A stretch of 64,000 nucleotides of DNA from Candidatus Baltobacteraceae bacterium (GTDB lineage: Bacteria > Vulcanimicrobiota > Vulcanimicrobiia > Vulcanimicrobiales > Vulcanimicrobiaceae), in the NCBI GenBank assembly GCA_036489885.1, contig DASXEW010000004.1, positions 1 through 64,000 of the forward strand, given 5' to 3'. A program made the translations under genes and the position numbers. Positions 4,483 to 38,247 of the stretch are shown piece by piece; the stretch's first letter is position 1, and each line of letters opens with the position of its first letter. A model generated the notes under the pieces. It made no database searches and was not told where the DNA came from. It saw only the letters and a list, made by a program, of their open reading frames with translations.

Positions 4483-4787
4483 CCGCACTTTGTACACAAC
4501 AGGTGATGATGTTTTTCGAGCACGGCTTCGAAGCGTGCCGCTGAACCTGCATGCGAAAATACTTGCACGAGGCCAAGTTCGCGCAGAATGTCGAGCGTGC
4601 GGTAGATCGTTCCAAGGCTAACGCCGGGAAGCTCTTCTCGAACGCGTTCTAAAATCGTTTCGGCAGAAAGATGTGCTGCGCCATCCAGGGCGCGCAGAAT
4701 CGCGGCGCGCTGCTTCGTCAGACGATACTTCGTCTGAAGAAGGCCGGCGTCGACCCCCTTAACATCCACCATCTCAAGCGCCCTCAT
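4308..4787 (-). CDS. Fur-family metal/peroxide-responsive repressor
   Basis: A 159-residue winged-helix regulator. The N-terminal half (YRLTKQRAAILRAL, AETILERVREE, VSLGTIYRTLDIL) is the Fur DNA-binding domain. The C-terminal half carries the metal motifs EKHHHLLCTKCG and GLCPSC, giving the two CxxC pairs of the structural zinc site. Whether it senses iron, zinc or peroxide cannot be told. The last ~18 residues after CPSC are unusual and arise where the gene runs 175 nt into the 3' end of convergent flhA. ATG 4787 is used; ATG 4772 (MVDVKG) is equally possible. The secD promoter begins 8 nt from its start, so the two diverge. Confidence 0.88.
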   Translation of the reverse strand: MRALEMVDVKGVDAGLLQTKYRLTKQRAAILRALDGAAHLSAETILERVREELPGVSLGTIYRTLDILRELGLVQVFSHAGSAARFEAVLEKHHHLLCTKCGQLVNITAPGLADLAAAIGSTRGFSEIDCVLTVTGLCPSCSTTSVPIGSSGISRGSSA

Positions 4788-4794
4788 TCACGGT

Positions 4795-4823
4795 TTGACC
4801 CGGGATGCCGACCCTGCTACAAT
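4795..4823 (+). promoter_or_regulatory. Sigma-70-type promoter of secDF
   Basis: TTGACC (4795-4800), a 17-nt spacer and TACAAT (4818-4823) form a near-consensus housekeeping promoter. The predicted transcript start near 4830 leaves about 25 nt before the secD ATG at 4855, and it rules out the longer open frame beginning at TTG 4795. Confidence 0.75.
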
Positions 4824-4854
4824 CTTGCGGTTCTCCCCTTCCCGCTGGCGGAAA

Positions 4855-6195
4855 ATGTGGTCTAGATTCAAAAATCCCGTGAAGGCGGCACTGCTGCTCG
4901 TCTTCGTCGCCCTTTGCGTTTGGGCGATTCTGCCCGTGCAACAGAAAATACGATTGGGTCTCGACCTGCGCGGAGGCGTTCAGGTCATTTTGCAGTTGCA
5001 ACCCACAAAAGAGGTCCCTGCTATCACGAGCCAGGTGCAGAGCCAGGTCGTGCAGGTCATCGACAATCGTATCAACGGCTTGGGCGTAACGGAGCCGCAG
5101 ATCACGCGCGTGGGCAACGATCGGATATTGGTCGAGCTTCCGGCGGTGAAGAATCCCGACGAAGCGATTCGCGCGCTCAAAGACGTCGCGCACCTCGAAT
5201 TCAAGATCGTGCCGGAGCAAGTTGCGACCCGCGCGTATGCAGCGCAAACCTCGGGCAAAGATCAAGCCTATATTCAAGGAAGCGTCGAGAAGCCGTCGCC
5301 GGCGTTCCTCGCCAGCGGTGCGACCATCTATAGCGGTGCCGAGCTGAAGGGCGCTCAGGCCTCCTACGATCAAAGCGGCCACCCGAAAATCGACTTTCAA
5401 ACGAAGAATCCCGGCAAGTTCGATTCGCTGACGCGCAAGTATTTGCATCAAAACCTCGGCATCTTCTTGGATGGCGGCTTCGTTTCGTCGCCCGTGATTC
5501 AATCGCCGATCGGTGAAAGCGGCGAGATCACCGGCAACTTCACGGAAGACGATGTCGTACGCATCGCAAACGAGCTCAACGCCGGTGCGTTGCCCGTCCC
5601 CGTCGTGATCATCTCGGACGACACGATCGGTCCGGTACTCGGTCAGCTCGACTTGACGGAATCGCTGTATGCTGCGGCGCTCGGTCTCGGCCTCGTCCTG
5701 GTATTCATGGTCATCGTCTATCGGTTACCGGGATTGCTCGCCGACTTGGCACTTGTCGTATACGTCGTCGCCTTGTTGGCGTTGCTCGCAGTCAATAAAG
5801 CGACGCTCACGCTTCCCGGCATCGCCGGCTTCGTTCTCTCGATCGGTATGGCGGTTGACGCCAACGTTCTGATTTTCGAGCGCCTCAAAGAAGAGTTGTG
5901 GGCCGGGAAGACGTTGCGCGCCGCAGTCCGGACCGGATTCGCGCGCGCCTTTACGACGGTTTTCGATAGCCACGTGACGACGATCGTCGGCGCGGGCGTT
6001 TTGTTTTTGCTTGGAACCGGAACGGTGAAAGGCTTCGCATACACGCTCTTTTGGGGAACGGTATTCTCGCTGGGTACCGCCGTCTACATCACGCGCTTCT
6101 TTATGGATGTCGTCGTCGATACCGACATCGTGACGTCGCCTGCCGCATACGGTGCGAGTGCGGGTGACATCGCCGCCGTGAAAGCCGGAGCCTAG
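4855..6195 (+). CDS. secD: Protein translocase subunit SecD
   Basis: A 446-residue inner-membrane protein that, with SecF, uses the proton gradient to pull proteins through SecYEG. A first transmembrane helix is followed by the conserved LGLDLRGGVQVILQL, a periplasmic P1 region, and a five-helix RND-like domain with GIAGFVLSIGMAVDANVLIFERLKEEL. I chose ATG 4855 because a near-consensus promoter overlaps the longer open frame and the usual SecD N-terminus (MWSRFKNPVKAALLL) starts here. secF follows after a single intervening base. Confidence 0.95.
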   Translation: MWSRFKNPVKAALLLVFVALCVWAILPVQQKIRLGLDLRGGVQVILQLQPTKEVPAITSQVQSQVVQVIDNRINGLGVTEPQITRVGNDRILVELPAVKNPDEAIRALKDVAHLEFKIVPEQVATRAYAAQTSGKDQAYIQGSVEKPSPAFLASGATIYSGAELKGAQASYDQSGHPKIDFQTKNPGKFDSLTRKYLHQNLGIFLDGGFVSSPVIQSPIGESGEITGNFTEDDVVRIANELNAGALPVPVVIISDDTIGPVLGQLDLTESLYAAALGLGLVLVFMVIVYRLPGLLADLALVVYVVALLALLAVNKATLTLPGIAGFVLSIGMAVDANVLIFERLKEELWAGKTLRAAVRTGFARAFTTVFDSHVTTIVGAGVLFLLGTGTVKGFAYTLFWGTVFSLGTAVYITRFFMDVVVDTDIVTSPAAYGASAGDIAAVKAGA

Positions 6196-32508: not shown

Positions 32509-32715
32509 TCACGCCATTCGCATAAACGGCGAGCACGTAGAAGTTGACATCGCAGTCCGCGGCCCCACGCCATGTTGTCGCGGTCCTCTTCCGGTCCGGG
32601 TCTGCGAATGAAGGGGATCAGTATACAATCGCTGCTGCCGAGATGATGATCCGACGCCCGAGAAACCGATGAAGCACCCGACGACAAAGCCGGCGAAAGT
32701 GTAACGTGGATCCAT
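32509..32715 (-). pseudogene. Remnant of a TauE/SafE-type sulfite exporter gene
   Basis: The first ~23 residues, MDPRYTFAGFVVGCFIGFSGVG, match the glycine-rich start of TauE/SafE (DUF81) transporters. After GVGSS the reading continues with unrelated, non-hydrophobic sequence to residue 68, so the gene looks cut by a deletion. Its ATG shares one base with the cysI stop (TGATG), showing it was coupled to cysI. The exporter identity rests on one short stretch. Confidence 0.45.
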
Positions 32716-34418
32716 CAGCTCGCCACCGCTGCGCCGGCGAGTGCCTCACGTCCAAGGCGATGGCAAAAATCGCCGAAGCTCTCCTCGCCCTCGCCTTCTT
32801 GCTGCCAACGCCGTAAGAGCGGCGCGACGGTCGACGCAAGTTCATTCAGGCGAACGCCTGTCGCGAATATCCAGTTTAGACGCGTATTTGCCCAATCGCC
32901 ACCGAGGAAGATGTCGTAAAGGTCTTTCGAGCGTCCGACGAAACCGACATCGCCCATGTACGGGCGAGCGCAACCGTTCGGGCATCCCGTCATGCGAATA
33001 CTGAGCGGCCGATCGTCGAGACCAAGTTGTTCGAGTTCGGCGTCGATCTCAGCAACGACATCGGGGAGCACGCGCTCGGCATCGGTCAGCGCCAAGCCGC
33101 AGGTCGGTAGTGCGGGGCACGCCATGGCGTGCCGGTGCGTTCCGAGCTTTTGCGGATCGACGGCGACGCGACACGATTCGAAGAGCCGCGTCACTTCAGG
33201 TACATCGGAGACGTGAATATCGGTCAGCAAGATATTCTGCTGTGCCGTGAGGTGCACCCCGGGCTGGAAGCGGTCGATGGCGGTGCGAAGTGCTTTCCGC
33301 AATGTCGACGTTTCGTCGTCTTTGATGCGGCCGTTCTCGACGAATAGACCGAAGCACCAACGCCCGTTTGGCTGCGGCTGCCAGCCAAGGTGATCGTCGA
33401 CATTGTCTAAACGAACGGGTCGCGGGGCGCGTAGCGGTAGGTCGCTTCGACGTTGCACTTCCGTACGGAACCACGCGATGCCGCGTTCCTCAACGACGTA
33501 TTTGAGACGCGCGTGCTTACGGTTGTTGCGATCGCCCCAGTCCCGATACGTCGTGACAATGGCCTCGACGATCTTGAGCACGTCGTCCGGGACGGCAAAG
33601 CAGAGCGGCGTACCGAGCCGAGGATAGGTCGCCGCTTTGCCATGCGTCATGCCCATGCCGCCGCCAACGAGTATCGTGAAGCCGACGAGACGTTCAGCCT
33701 CGACATTTGCGACCAGGCCGATGTCTTGCGTGTAGACGTCGACGCAGTTGTCATTTGGGCGCGCAATGCCGATCTTGAATTTGCGCGGTAGATACGTCGA
33801 GCCGTAAATCGGTTCGACGTCAGGCGCCGCTTGCTCGACGCGTTCACCGTCGACCCAGATCTCGCGGTATCCGCGCGTTGTAGGGGTTAGGTGGCGCGCG
33901 ATTGCCTGCGCGACGCCCACGATCGCCTCATCGGCTTCCGTCCGGATGGGCGCTGGGCATGTCATGACGTTGCGATTCACGTCCCCGCAGGCTGCAAGCG
34001 TCGTCAGATCGGCGGAATTGATCTCCGCGATCGCACTGCGCAAGTCTCCCTTGAGGACGCCATGATGCTGAAATCCCTGCCGCGTCGTAATGCGAAGTGT
34101 GCCATTTCCGTACTTGTCCGCGAGTGCGTCTTCGGCCAAGTATTGCGCCGCGGACAACACACCGCCGGGCACCCGCGTGCGGATCATGAACTGATACGCT
34201 TTGCCCGTACCCTCGTCGCGACGCGCTCGGCGCTGGTCGCGATCCTCTTGCTGATAGCTTCCATGAAACTTGAGGAGCTGCGCGTCGGCCTCCGGAAGGT
34301 TAGGGCTATCGCTGAGGAGTTGCTCTGCGATCGTGCCGCGCAAGAATGCGCTGCCGGCCTTGACCGATTCGACTTTGCTGCCGGCACCGGAGCCGAGGTC
34401 GAGCAGATGATCACTCAT
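32715..34418 (-). CDS. cysI: Sulfite reductase hemoprotein (assimilatory)
   Basis: A 567-residue cytoplasmic siroheme/[4Fe-4S] enzyme reducing sulfite to sulfide for cysteine synthesis. RITTRQGFQHHGVLK and NVMTCPAPI are typical, and the four cluster Cys are in ACPALPTCGLAL and MTGCPNGCARPYMGD. No flavoprotein partner (cysJ) is nearby, so electrons may come from ferredoxin. The start ATG 34418 lies within the stop of a short cysH-like frame, and upstream is a leader with tandem Cys codons plus a terminator hairpin, so expression is probably attenuated when cysteine is plentiful. Confidence 0.92.
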   Translation of the reverse strand: MSDHLLDLGSGAGSKVESVKAGSAFLRGTIAEQLLSDSPNLPEADAQLLKFHGSYQQEDRDQRRARRDEGTGKAYQFMIRTRVPGGVLSAAQYLAEDALADKYGNGTLRITTRQGFQHHGVLKGDLRSAIAEINSADLTTLAACGDVNRNVMTCPAPIRTEADEAIVGVAQAIARHLTPTTRGYREIWVDGERVEQAAPDVEPIYGSTYLPRKFKIGIARPNDNCVDVYTQDIGLVANVEAERLVGFTILVGGGMGMTHGKAATYPRLGTPLCFAVPDDVLKIVEAIVTTYRDWGDRNNRKHARLKYVVEERGIAWFRTEVQRRSDLPLRAPRPVRLDNVDDHLGWQPQPNGRWCFGLFVENGRIKDDETSTLRKALRTAIDRFQPGVHLTAQQNILLTDIHVSDVPEVTRLFESCRVAVDPQKLGTHRHAMACPALPTCGLALTDAERVLPDVVAEIDAELEQLGLDDRPLSIRMTGCPNGCARPYMGDVGFVGRSKDLYDIFLGGDWANTRLNWIFATGVRLNELASTVAPLLRRWQQEGEGEESFGDFCHRLGREALAGAAVAS

Positions 34419-34560
34419 GGATCAGCTGCGTATGGTGCACGACATCGAGCGAGACGATGCCGGACGGGCCACCGAAGGAACACGTAAGCGCGATACGATT
34501 GTGGAACTTGGCAACAGCCAAGCTGAGGACGTGCCTCGTTGTGTCAACGAGCGCTTCCAT
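34411..34560 (-). CDS. 49-residue CysH-like N-terminal fragment, translationally coupled to cysI
   Basis: Begins at ATG 34560 behind a strong TAGGAGAG and ends at TGA 34411, overlapping the cysI start by 8 nt. The product contains HNRIALTCSFGGPSGIVSLDVV, resembling the first beta-alpha unit and P-loop-like SFGG...G of PAPS/APS reductases. The rest of a ~230-residue CysH is missing. It may be a relic of cysH fused to cysI by deletion, retained because it drives cysI translation, or a genuine small protein. Confidence 0.6.
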   Translation of the reverse strand: MEALVDTTRHVLSLAVAKFHNRIALTCSFGGPSGIVSLDVVHHTQLIHE

Positions 34561-34589
34561 GACTATCTCTCCTAGTGCGATGGGAAGAG

Positions 34590-34625
34590 AAAATGAAGAG
34601 CCCCCGCCGAATCGGCGAGGGCTCT
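34590..34625 (-). terminator. Attenuator terminator upstream of cysI
   Basis: On the minus strand AGAGCCC-T-CGCCGA pairs with TCGGCG-G-GGGCTCT (34625 to 34597), followed by TCATTTTCTCTT. Its 5' arm (34617-34610) can instead pair with leader bases 34668-34661, which would prevent termination. Confidence 0.7.
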
Positions 34626-34657
34626 ACGCAGCCATGAAAGGCACGCGTGTGTGTCCT

Positions 34658-34720
34658 CTACGCCGATCCCCGCAGGGGCGAGATACAACACATCATCATG
34701 ATCGCGTGCGCGCTAAACAT
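34658..34720 (-). CDS. Cysteine leader peptide (20 residues, tandem Cys codons)
   Basis: Short frame MFSAHAIMMMCCISPLRGSA. Two adjacent TGT codons (34690-34685) would stall ribosomes when charged Cys-tRNA is scarce. The stop TAG (34658) immediately follows the antiterminator segment. ATG 34720 lies exactly 7 nt after a -10 box, so the message is probably leaderless; the three in-frame ATGs at 34699-34691 are internal alternatives. Similar leaderless Cys-rich short ORFs control sulfur genes in mycobacteria. Role inferred from this arrangement. Confidence 0.75.
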   Translation of the reverse strand: MFSAHAIMMMCCISPLRGSA

Positions 34721-34727
34721 CGCGGTG

Positions 34728-34756
34728 ACCGTAACACGAGACAGTAGCGTAGTCAA
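34728..34756 (-). promoter_or_regulatory. Promoter of the cysteine leader/cysI transcript
   Basis: Minus strand: TTGACT (34756-34751), a 17-nt spacer and TACGGT (34733-34728). Seven nt later is the leader ATG at 34720, predicting a transcript that begins at or beside the A of ATG. Confidence 0.65.
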
Positions 34757-34783
34757 GTAGCCTTCGATGTAATATCAGGGCCA

Positions 34784-35372
34784 AATACAGATGTCCCCTT
34801 TCTGACCGGATAGAAATGTCCCCGACCTGGTTGCGAAGGCCGCTCTATGAGGAGCGACTTAACGACCATGAGCCAGCGCGAGATTACGCGGCTGCAAGCG
34901 ATGCAACGGCTTGAGAGCGGTCATCTGAAGCAACACGACGTCGCTGTGCAACTTGGACTCACGACACGTCAGGTCAAGCGACTTTGGCGCGCATACCGAC
35001 GCGAAGACGCAGACGGACTCGTCTCCAAAAGACGCGGCAAACCCGGCAACCATCGCACCAATCCGGCGTTGTTGCAGCAAGCTCTCTAGCTGATCGCGAC
35101 ACGGTATCCGGACTTCGGGCCGACGCTGGCCTCAGAGAAATTGGCCGAACGCGACGGCATTACGATCCCCAAGGAAACGCTGCGCACGGCAATGATCACG
35201 GCAAGACTCTGGAAGCCGCGCCGCTCGAAGCGCAAAGCGACGCATCCACCACGCGAGCGGCGGCCCTGCTTTGGTGAACTCGTCCAGATCGACGGCTCCC
35301 ATCACCGCTGGTTCGAAGATCGCGCGCCGAAATGCACGCTCTTGGTCTTCGTCGACGACGCGACGCACGAAT
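34784..35372 (+). mobile_element. Truncated ISNCY-type insertion sequence
   Basis: The left end shows two ATGTCCCC motifs separated by a short spacer (34791-34824), typical of the subterminal ends of this IS group, followed by the transposase. Homology stops near 35372 inside the catalytic domain and no right end is visible. Its junction with the LuxR-family gene region suggests an old insertion followed by deletion. Boundaries are approximate. Confidence 0.6.
34847..35372 (+). pseudogene. ISNCY-family transposase, broken
   Basis: The first 80 codons encode the helix-turn-helix part (MSQREITRLQAMQRLESGHL, RQVKRLWRAYRREDADGL). An in-frame TAG at 35087-35089 interrupts the gene; the same frame resumes with IATRYPDFGPTLASEKLAER, ending in the DDE-type start ELVQIDGSHHRWFEDR and LVFVDDATH. 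Sequence then diverges, removing the rest of the catalytic core. Two independent lesions make it non-functional. Confidence 0.82.
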
Positions 35373-35490
35373 CCGAACGGCGCTCACATCTGTCTCAGGA
35401 TCACGCGACTAGTGGATTTCCGGGGTTCGGTATCGCTTCATACTTTAGTAGCGGACCGGCGAGACAGATTAACGAATTTAACCTGGAGAC

Positions 35491-38247
35491 ATGCCAACGA
35501 CGGTTTCGTCACCAATTTCCTGTCGCGAGCTCATTGGGCGCGATACGGAATTGCGTGCGCTGCAGGCCGCGTTTGGAGGCGTGCTCGCTGGCGCGGGTTG
35601 CTCCGTCGTCGTGAGCGGCGAAGCCGGCATTGGGAAGACGCGTCTCGTCAATGCATTCCGTGAAGCCGTCCTGGAGCACGATCCCGCCGTCTACGTTGGT
35701 CAATGCTACGACAGTGTCAGCGGTGCGTACGTTCCGTTTGATGATCTCCTCGAGGATCTCCGCAAGCGCCCCGCTCGCGCCGAGACGTCGACCAGTGCCG
35801 AGCGACCCGGCGGGGATAGCAAGATCCGCTATTTTCGAACAGTCGCGGATGCGCTTCGGAAGAGAAGCGCACGTCGTCCGGTTATTTTGATAATCGAAGA
35901 CATTCAGTGGGCTGATCGCGCGACTGTGGAACTGTTTGCATATCTCGCGAACAATCTGCGTCAAGCGCCGGTCATGCTGCTTACGACGATGCGGCAGGAT
36001 GCGTTCGACTCGCGTGACGTTCTCGCGATTTTGGCTGGACTGCACCGTGCCGGCGCAATCGAAATCGATCTGGCAGGATTAGAGCGCGAAAAGACCCGCG
36101 AGCTGATCCATCGGGCCCTTCAAGGTCATCGTATGCCGTCGGTCGAGCTGCGGCGTCAAATTGAAGAGATGTCCGAAGGGAATCCGCTTTACGCCGAAGA
36201 GATGTTGCGCTCCGCGGTCGATCGACTCGACGATCCCGAGGCACCGGTACGGATTCCGCTAACAATCTCTGCCGTCGTCGCGCAACGATTGCGCGCATTC
36301 GAGGAAGCGGAAATCGAAATGTTGCGGTTTGCGGCCGTCATCGGTCGACGCTTCAACGCGATCTTTCTCTCAAAGGTGACAGGCGCTGCCTACAGCGACG
36401 TTCTCGGCATCCTCCAAAAGGCGCGCGCGCATCAACTCATCGAGGAGCTTCCGGGGCAACCGGTCCCCTACGTATTCCGCCATACGCTGATCCGCGAAGC
36501 ACTGTACGCGCAACTGCTAACACCTGTAGCACACGGCATGCACGACCGTGTTGCAAGCGTTCTCGAGGCCGAAGGTGAGGGAAGTGCAGCTGAGCTGGCT
36601 CACCATTGGGATAAAGCCGGAAGAGACGACAAGGCGGTCGTCTACCACGAGCGTGCCGGCGATTCGGCGGTTGACCTCGTTGCGTGTCATGACGCCGCGG
36701 GCTTCTATCGTAAGGCCCTCGCGGCGCATCCCCAGGGCACGAGTCGAGCTCGCCTCTACGAAAAGCTCGGACTCGCTCTCAGTATTGAAGGGTCATTTGA
36801 CGAGGCTGGACTCTGCCTCAACGCAGCTGCCAACGAGTACCGCAACCTCGGCGATTTTGACGCAGTGGCAAATGTGCTCTTGCACATCGCCCGCCAACGT
36901 TGGGAAGAATCAAACACGACGGAAAGCTTGCATGCCTCGCAAGAAGCAGCCACGCTTCCTCTGGGTTCGAATTCTGAAAGAATTCTTGCTCGCGCTCGAA
37001 TCACGCATGCTCGCTTTTTGATCACGCTTGCGGACGCAACCGCCGCAGCCGAGACGTTAAAGCTCGCTTCGGGGAGTTTGGAAGACCTCGACGCGCCGTG
37101 GCAGGCACAATATTACGAGGTGCTCGGAGAGACACTCGCCGCTCTCGACGATGTCGAAGGTTTCCTATCGGCCTTTGAGGAGGCGACACGGCTCGCCAAC
37201 GAAGCCGGCAACGTCGACGGTCTCGTACGGATCGAAAACGCCTACGCTCTCAGCGCTGTCGATTTGGGATTAACTGATACGGCAGTCGCTGCCCATCGAC
37301 GAGCACTTTCCGCTTCCGGTCACGCGAATCTGATTTGGCGTGATGCTTATACGCGTCTCGGGGCCGCGGGGACGTCCTTTTTGTGTGGTGACCTTCAACG
37401 ATCGCGCGACTTGATTCGAGGCGCGCTTGGTCAAGGGCTCGAGAGTTCGACGCTTCGGACGCGCGCAGCGGCAGTCGGATTGCGCGTTGCTGTTCTCCTC
37501 GACGACAAGGAACTTATTCGGGATCTCAGCGATGTTCGTGCCGTCGAGGAAGCGTTTCGGTCGGGTGAACCGCAGCGTATCGGAAGCGTCGCGGCAGCAT
37601 TCAGCCTGTTGTATCGGGAGCAGGGAAAAATCGACGAGGCCACTGATCTTTTGCGAAAAGCACTGAGTCGGATCGATCGGCTTCATCGGTGTTGGGACTT
37701 TGCTCTCGAAGTCGCAGCATTCGGAGACATTGCTGACGCGGACGCCTTAATGAGGCTCATTAATGGGCGTCGATCCGAGGCAAATAAAGCCGCGGCGGCC
37801 TTCCAAAACATCTGCGCGGCCTACATTGAGAAGCGAAAGGGTCAAGCGGCTTTGTCGATGACCCTCGCGAAGGCGGCGGCCGAAGGATTTAAGCATTTGC
37901 GCTGGCCGACGTACGAAGCGCTTGCACACGAGCTCGCCGGCGAACCTGAAGAAGCGCTCGCGCTCAATCTCACGATTGGAAGCTTGAAGTCAGCGCGGCG
38001 GCAAGAGAAAGCGCTGATGGCGAGCCGTGAAGGTGAGCACGTTGCGCTTACGGCGCGCCAGGCGCAGGTCGCCGAACTCGTTGCCGAGGGATGCACGAAT
38101 CGCGAGATCGGCAAACGCCTATTCATTAGCGAGCATACTGTTGAGAACCACCTCGCCGTGATGTACGAGCGCCTTGGCGTACGATCGCGTTCGCAACTGG
38201 CAGCCTATTTCAGCCGAACAGGTCAGTCCGAAGCTAAGACTTCGTAG
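35491..38247 (+). CDS. Large ATP-binding LuxR-family regulator (LAL type), copy 1
   Basis: A 918-residue MalT/LAL-like regulator. N-terminal STAND ATPase: Walker A GEAGIGKTRL (about residue 50) and Walker B VILIIEDIQWAD. A long helical tetratricopeptide-like middle follows. The C-terminus is a LuxR helix-turn-helix, LTARQAQVAELVAEGCTNREIGKRL, HTVENHLAVMYERLG. Signal ligand unknown. It is preceded by GGAG, and followed by a convergent asparaginase gene with a 25-nt overlap. A paralogue at 45.2 kb precedes a second asparaginase gene, suggesting both control Asn/peptide-related genes. Confidence 0.9.
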   Translation: MPTTVSSPISCRELIGRDTELRALQAAFGGVLAGAGCSVVVSGEAGIGKTRLVNAFREAVLEHDPAVYVGQCYDSVSGAYVPFDDLLEDLRKRPARAETSTSAERPGGDSKIRYFRTVADALRKRSARRPVILIIEDIQWADRATVELFAYLANNLRQAPVMLLTTMRQDAFDSRDVLAILAGLHRAGAIEIDLAGLEREKTRELIHRALQGHRMPSVELRRQIEEMSEGNPLYAEEMLRSAVDRLDDPEAPVRIPLTISAVVAQRLRAFEEAEIEMLRFAAVIGRRFNAIFLSKVTGAAYSDVLGILQKARAHQLIEELPGQPVPYVFRHTLIREALYAQLLTPVAHGMHDRVASVLEAEGEGSAAELAHHWDKAGRDDKAVVYHERAGDSAVDLVACHDAAGFYRKALAAHPQGTSRARLYEKLGLALSIEGSFDEAGLCLNAAANEYRNLGDFDAVANVLLHIARQRWEESNTTESLHASQEAATLPLGSNSERILARARITHARFLITLADATAAAETLKLASGSLEDLDAPWQAQYYEVLGETLAALDDVEGFLSAFEEATRLANEAGNVDGLVRIENAYALSAVDLGLTDTAVAAHRRALSASGHANLIWRDAYTRLGAAGTSFLCGDLQRSRDLIRGALGQGLESSTLRTRAAAVGLRVAVLLDDKELIRDLSDVRAVEEAFRSGEPQRIGSVAAAFSLLYREQGKIDEATDLLRKALSRIDRLHRCWDFALEVAAFGDIADADALMRLINGRRSEANKAAAAFQNICAAYIEKRKGQAALSMTLAKAAAEGFKHLRWPTYEALAHELAGEPEEALALNLTIGSLKSARRQEKALMASREGEHVALTARQAQVAELVAEGCTNREIGKRLFISEHTVENHLAVMYERLGVRSRSQLAAYFSRTGQSEAKTS

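Follow-up and report, generated by a model that had tools for sequence, protein, structure and literature searches.

The window analysed here is a 64-kb stretch of DNA, on whose minus strand a candidate regulatory element lies 5' of cysI, the gene for the hemoprotein subunit of an assimilatory sulfite reductase (Table 1). The short frame that separates the element from cysI resembles the N-terminus of cysH followed by a short tail, and the same place in the relative G014 is occupied by an intact cysH; a Pfam search of the frame returned no match. This cysH remnant probably couples translation to cysI. The sole PF01507 match in the genome lies elsewhere, adjoins a gene for a CysN-like GTPase and looks like cysD, and no intact cysH was found in the genome, from which it is apparently absent. 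Directly upstream of the promoter lies an insertion-sequence-like remnant (window ~34775-35614) with repeated GGGGACAT motifs, within which an integrase-like frame (35141-35614) has no Pfam match.

An earlier note on this DNA had listed, in order, a promoter, a gap of 7 nt, a 20-codon frame with two adjacent Cys codons, a hairpin, a strand suited to alternative pairing and a terminator, all upstream of sulfite reductase. Each of these parts is present in the sequence, and the identity of the downstream gene is confirmed by its NF010029 score. The complementarity described in that note is also real: the 5' arm of the terminator contains CGCCGATT (34617-34610), which matches GATCGGCG over 8 bp with one terminal G-U. 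The U-tract behind the terminator hairpin is interrupted (TCATTTTCTCTT), which counts against the attenuator reading, and the Shine-Dalgarno sequence of the first structural frame lies downstream of the hairpin and outside it. Adjacent Cys codons occur in 22 frames of the window, most of them presumably by chance. Exactly one frame starts with ATG, spans 10-40 codons, includes adjacent Cys codons and has both a terminator no more than 60 nt away and a TTGAC/TAnnnT promoter 6-10 nt upstream, and the same combination was encountered in 0 of 40 Markov-randomised windows. A search of the window against Rfam 15, with its riboswitch and T-box families, gave nothing above the gathering score.

Table 1. 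Features of the cysI locus in the window
Feature	Position	Strand	Basis or remark
-35 box TTGACT	34751..34756	-	sequence
-10 box TACGGT	34728..34733	-	sequence; 17 nt after the -35 box
Leader ORF MFSAHAIMMMCCISPLRGSA, then stop; 20 codons, ATG at 34720, 7 nt past the -10 box	34658..34720	-	sequence; putatively leaderless
Tandem Cys codons TGT TGT (codons 11-12), ATG ATG ATG just before	34685..34690	-	sequence; Cys leaders in relatives
Small hairpin CCCC-TGC-GGGG, between Cys codons and antiterminator strand	34668..34678	-	sequence
Antiterminator 5' strand GATCGGCG, directly before the leader TAG	34661..34668	-	predicted to pair with 34617-34610 in the stalled-ribosome fold
Middle hairpin inside the antiterminator	34626..34648	-	fold; the paralogous copy retains the stem
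Intrinsic terminator stem-loop AGAGCCCTCGCCG-ATT-CGGCGGGGGCTCT	34597..34625	-	13-bp stem, -26.3 kcal/mol, z -6.2
U-rich tail of the terminator, TCATTTTCTCTT	34596-34585	-	sequence
Shine-Dalgarno sequence AGGAGAGA of the first structural frame	34566..34573	-	sequence; conserved in the C3 copy
Truncated cysH, 49 codons, between terminator and cysI, 8-nt overlap with the cysI start	34411..34560	-	TIGR00434 weak, E 0.12; by-eye alignment with G014 cysH
cysI, assimilatory sulfite reductase hemoprotein subunit	32715..34418	-	PF01077, PF03460; NF010029 728.6 bits, cut-off 457

Leaders in the same genome and in other bacteria

A second whole element starts at C3:217608 and comprises a promoter, a leader (MLSVYAMMMCCISPLRGSA, then stop), a terminator, a Shine-Dalgarno sequence and a shorter cysH remnant, in front of a cysI paralogue with 90% identity to the window gene. 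The stretch that begins with the Cys codons and ends at the stop is identical in the two copies, as is the terminator, and the N-terminal part of the C3 leader differs from that of the window leader, one codon being deleted in frame. Both paralogues stand behind cysH remnants of unequal length (window 34560-34411; L002 1698-1784), each of which retains its start, its Shine-Dalgarno sequence and the overlap with cysI. Across the genome, the pattern TTGAC, 17-19 nt, TAnnnT, 6-10 nt, ATG has 22 matches, compared with 4 for the reversed pattern. The short frames among these matches include four Cys leaders, each with a terminator, which precede the two cysI genes, a gene for an SsuA-family sulfonate-binding protein (209 bits, cut-off 163.5) and a gene for the homocysteine synthase MetY (729.8 bits, cut-off 726). 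One Ile/Leu/Val leader of the leaderless type, also with a terminator, lies before leuA (MRNRAIGLILVLTGSSTT, then stop; G000:C1:4094, L082) and may represent a branched-chain attenuator of the same build as the Cys leaders. The amino acids of the leaders fit the operons behind them, with Leu, Ile and Val before leuA and Met plus Cys before hom-metY.

The genome of the window is placed in the phylum Eremiobacterota through its named relative palsa_1516. Relatives were sought in 149 genomes of this phylum, 14 of which carry this cysI, at 15 loci; one locus begins at a contig edge, leaving 14 that are readable. A Cys leader with an intrinsic terminator is present at 13 of the 14, with sequences that are mostly unrelated (for example MLLCCCLLMACPASVARRSASS, MLARACCCPGCPPARSIGTG and MSSLLGTMCRCCRNCSTGGPANSAMT); in the G125 leader the two Cys codons are separated rather than contiguous. 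The exception is G102, in which the leader and the terminator are gone and the promoter, the same as in its sister genome G019, is kept, directly followed by the Shine-Dalgarno sequence and the gene start. This natural deletion is located at ~1400-1490 on the reverse strand of L049, and the sister genome has both leader and terminator. Further Cys leaders in the same relatives precede cysH (G019, G124, G008 and G029) and, in G007, a gene for a TauE/SafE permease. An intrinsic terminator, consisting of a G+C-rich hairpin and then a T-rich tail, follows the stop codon at a distance of 16-51 nt in all 34 Cys leaders, and by-eye inspection of several relatives places hairpins at the position of the small hairpin. 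The leader sequences do not align between genera, and within groups the helices hardly vary. The earlier note had set conservation in relatives as a test of its reading, and the Cys codons, the terminator and the alternative pairing are indeed kept as a layout though the sequences differ. Where the upstream DNA of related leaders can be read, almost all of them have a TTGAC-type -35 box with a spacing of 17-18 nt, and the -10 position is occupied by TAnnnT or TAAATA. Among such leaders from Eremiobacterota and Gemmatimonadota, 30 of 31 place the ATG 7-11 nt past the -10 box, and the maintenance of this spacing fits a leaderless start.

In ten other genomes, metY or hom is preceded by a leader in which Met codons occur together with Cys codons (for example MFATTTAMMCSMCRMQMRTAWVVMESTV and MNRRSLAMMMCCCSPRGTV), and some of these leaders carry Thr runs as well. 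Leaders rich in both residues precede hom, which encodes homoserine dehydrogenase, at L163, L166, L168, L169, L173 and L178, and metY at L157, L160, L165 and L170 and, in the genome of the window, at G000:C4:111745. Met makes up 14.8% of the residues in the metY/hom leaders versus 5.4% in the Cys leaders, where Cys contributes 17%. This composition suggests that the metY/hom leaders may function as dual Met/Cys sensors.

In some Gemmatimonadota, leaders of unrelated sequence and the same layout are found before cysC, cysI or cysH (for example MIVRHTTTRCCPPCRMMCPCSFGSGRGCGAVVAGIG). Their promoters read TTGACA, 17 or 18 nt, TAAATA or TAAGGT, with mostly 7-11 nt to the ATG, and their terminator is of the form CGGGCCCGCTTCC. 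The antiterminator strand of the Gemmatimonadota cysC leaders is situated well upstream of the stop, out of direct reach of a ribosome at termination, and a 1:2 hairpin would be needed. One locus from Gemmatimonas (L018), with a Cys-rich frame and a terminator but without the leaderless promoter, was left out of the set. One Anaerolineae genome (L033/G150) has two tandem Cys leaders before cysI (L033 503-640 and 640-790), which have separate terminators and separate alternative pairings of 8 bp each (CTGAGGTT/AACCTCAG and ATAGTTCG/CGAACTAT); a leaderless promoter was seen at neither. Among Chloroflexota, where 54 of 400 genomes have cysI and 30 loci were scanned, a leader with a terminator was recognised in this Anaerolineae genome only, and none was seen at the Planctomycetota and Ktedonobacteria cysI loci that were checked. 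The two Ktedonobacteria loci have, instead of a leader peptide, a shared GTTGAT...ATCAAC-type palindrome by the promoter (L016 ~4800-4875; L017 ~4720-4790), which is probably bound by a repressor.

Alternative pairing and the proposed mechanism

The alternative pairing was assessed by folding, for each leader, the span that starts at the edge of a Cys-stalled ribosome and takes in the whole terminator 5' arm, with dinucleotide shuffles of the exposed segment as the control. This ensemble test on all loci replaced a first, duplex-only shuffle test with hand-defined arms, in which the high G+C content of the arms made single p-values weak. Pairing of the exposed segment with the terminator 5' arm exceeds that of the shuffles, both with hand-chosen arms (Fisher p 4.8e-5, 12 groups) and with automatic ones (Fisher p 2.2e-5, 20 groups). 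When the best complement of the arm was searched across the entire leader transcript, it fell between the stall and stop footprints in 33 of 34 leaders, corresponding to 19.5 of 20 groups versus 10 expected. The ten metY/hom leaders, which were collected independently and only once the test had been fixed, confirm the pairing (p 2.9e-6; 10 of 10 in the interval versus 4.6 expected), and in both sets together the best complement lies in the stall-exposed stretch in 43 of 44 leaders. Shifting the ribosome to the stop codon costs the terminator arm about six of these pairs on average. Taken alone, the window element gives a modest result (p 0.03 when the arms were chosen by hand; with automatic arms 0.16, which is not significant), and G119 fits poorly (p 0.5-0.7).

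Computational support covers the parts of the element and their conserved layout, the location of the alternative pairing and its excess over shuffles, and the association with sulfur genes; from these data we infer a leaderless start, ribosome stalling, termination, a cysteine response and possibly a methionine co-response. In our judgement the window element is very likely a ribosome-mediated transcription attenuator that responds to cysteine on a leaderless message. RNA polymerase would start at the leader ATG or within one or two nucleotides of it, and a ribosome would load on the 5'-terminal AUG. With ample Cys-tRNA, the ribosome would reach the leader stop and cover GATCGGCG (34668-34661), leaving the terminator 5' arm to pair with its 3' arm, and transcription would stop short of cysI. 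With scarce Cys-tRNA, it would stall at codons 11-12 and leave GATCGGCG free to pair with CGCCGATT ahead of synthesis of the terminator 3' arm; with this antiterminator in place, polymerase would read through into the cysH remnant and cysI. In folds of the window RNA that carry a Cys-stalled ribosome and lack the terminator 3' arm as not yet made, GATCGGCG does pair with 34617-34610. In the complete RNA at equilibrium the terminator is favoured even with a stalled ribosome, and antitermination must therefore be kinetic, dependent on the order of synthesis. Classical attenuators are generally held to depend on the order of RNA synthesis as well. The switching logic put forward in the earlier note is largely supported as to layout and the position of the pairing, with the qualification that a stalled ribosome does not suffice at equilibrium and that a kinetic switch is needed.

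It is conceivable, though we consider it rather doubtful, that the leader senses methionine or sulfur amino acids generally, rather than cysteine specifically, and that the ATG ATG ATG run contributes to the sensing. In this genome all four leaders have a Met run ahead of their Cys codons, as does the metY leader of G008, and the enrichment of Met in the metY/hom leaders points in the same direction; several cysI and cysH leaders (G103, G007, G019 and G029H), on the other hand, have no internal Met, whereas Cys occurs in all and has the large share of residues given above. The cysteine sensing proposed in the earlier note fits the conserved Cys codons, but the adjacent Met codons suggest that sulfur amino acids, not cysteine alone, may be read.

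A different mode of action, in which the leader would control access to the downstream ribosome-binding site or coupled translation in the mycobacterial style and the hairpin would be no working terminator, appears improbable. Mycobacterial leaderless polycysteine ORFs are described, in later papers that refer to them, as acting on downstream translation (PMC9031893, PMC13236596), and a Shine-Dalgarno sequence does lie downstream of the hairpin. In the window, however, this sequence (34573-34566) is no part of the hairpin, the same hairpin and T-rich tail recur in every one of the Cys leaders, and G102 lost leader and terminator together. There is scarcely any likelihood that the frame is a chance ORF which happens to cover an upstream gene's terminator or a simple constitutive leader. 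The insertion-sequence-like remnant directly upstream and the many adjacent-Cys frames in the window would be in keeping with such an accident, but the layout recurs in two phyla and one Anaerolineae genome with sulfur genes downstream, and the randomised windows are devoid of the pattern; the chance reading was rejected, as the conservation of layout refutes it. Extending the transcription attenuator beyond the window, we lean towards the view that Eremiobacterota and, separately, part of Gemmatimonadota possess a multi-locus leaderless attenuator regulon for sulfur amino acid supply, in which 70S ribosomes on a 5'-terminal AUG would sense Cys-tRNA and, in hom/metY leaders, Met- and Cys-tRNA, and to which leuA may also belong.

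Relation to known systems

The first prediction of leader peptides with Cys codons, by Seliverstov et al. 2005, covered Mycobacterium, P. acnes and B. longum, and terminators were not found (PMC1262725). The leaderless polycysteine ORFs of mycobacteria (Canestrari et al. 2020) are cited here through later papers (PMC9031893, PMC9094748, PMC13236596), and their action is reported to be translational (PMC9031893, PMC13236596). As characterised in these sources, they resemble the present leaders in the Cys codons within a short ORF, in the leaderless start, which is predicted here, and in their place before genes of sulfur assimilation or cysteine synthesis; they differ in their translational action and in that no terminator was found there (PMC1262725), whereas intrinsic terminator and alternative pairing are present at every locus here. 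Also in a diderm, the uORFC-8-2 motif upstream of the Rhodobacterales cysS gene resembles the present leaders in that it has tandem Cys codons followed by an intrinsic terminator and is predicted to act as a ribosome-mediated transcription attenuator (PMC8632094). That motif controls cysteinyl-tRNA synthetase, is restricted to Rhodobacterales and has its Cys codons inside the first stem, unlike the window element, in which they (34690-34685) precede the small hairpin (34678). The present leaders belong to biosynthesis and uptake genes, cysI being the downstream gene in the window, have a putatively leaderless start and occur in other phyla. The earlier note had seen a notable extension to a diderm with TonB receptors. 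The genome does encode a TonB-dependent receptor (PF00593), and Vulcanimicrobium alpinus, a cultured member of the phylum, has an outer membrane covered with LPS (PMC9758169), but the earlier prediction of the Rhodobacterales attenuator (PMC8632094) makes the extension less unprecedented.

In Streptomyces lividans, leuL2, trpL1 and ilvL are leaderless leader peptides with Rho-independent terminators, and metL, the leader of metN (MSTTSDRTPATEATTTPGARCMCRRMCAF; table 4 of that paper), mixes Met and Cys (CMCRRMC), its termination being called unclear (PMC8079986). The former are alike in joining a leaderless leader to a terminator and sense Leu, Trp or Ile/Val; metL combines Met with Cys in the manner of the Eremiobacterota hom/metY leaders. 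The classical trp, his and leu attenuators of Proteobacteria have Shine-Dalgarno-led leaders and respond to other amino acids; they share with the present element the regulatory codons and the order of antiterminator and terminator, whereas the leader here would be leaderless. The present system shares parts with each known system and equals none of them. A search of mainly open-access literature turned up no terminator-based cysteine attenuator upstream of genes for sulfur assimilation, nor any Met+Cys leaders before hom or metY.

If the attenuator reading is correct, ribosome-mediated cysteine sensing would no longer be a mycobacterial speciality with one predicted alphaproteobacterial case in addition, and a cysteine-sensing regulon would exist in Gemmatimonadota and in a diderm phylum with hardly any cultured members. 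Such a regulon would join leaderless initiation to intrinsic termination for cysteine, with the suggestion of leaders that read methionine and cysteine together. The system allows attenuation to be tested where the first ribosome has to bind the 5' end of the message as soon as this end emerges, and G102 and its sister G019 provide a natural deletion comparison. Leaderless-type micro-ORFs with T-rich tracts downstream also occur in the genome of the window: MPLG-stop at G000:C3:2004218 (L100) and MPLGR-stop at G000:C1:837952 (L086), upstream of the apparent rpoB and rpoC, respectively, on separate contigs.
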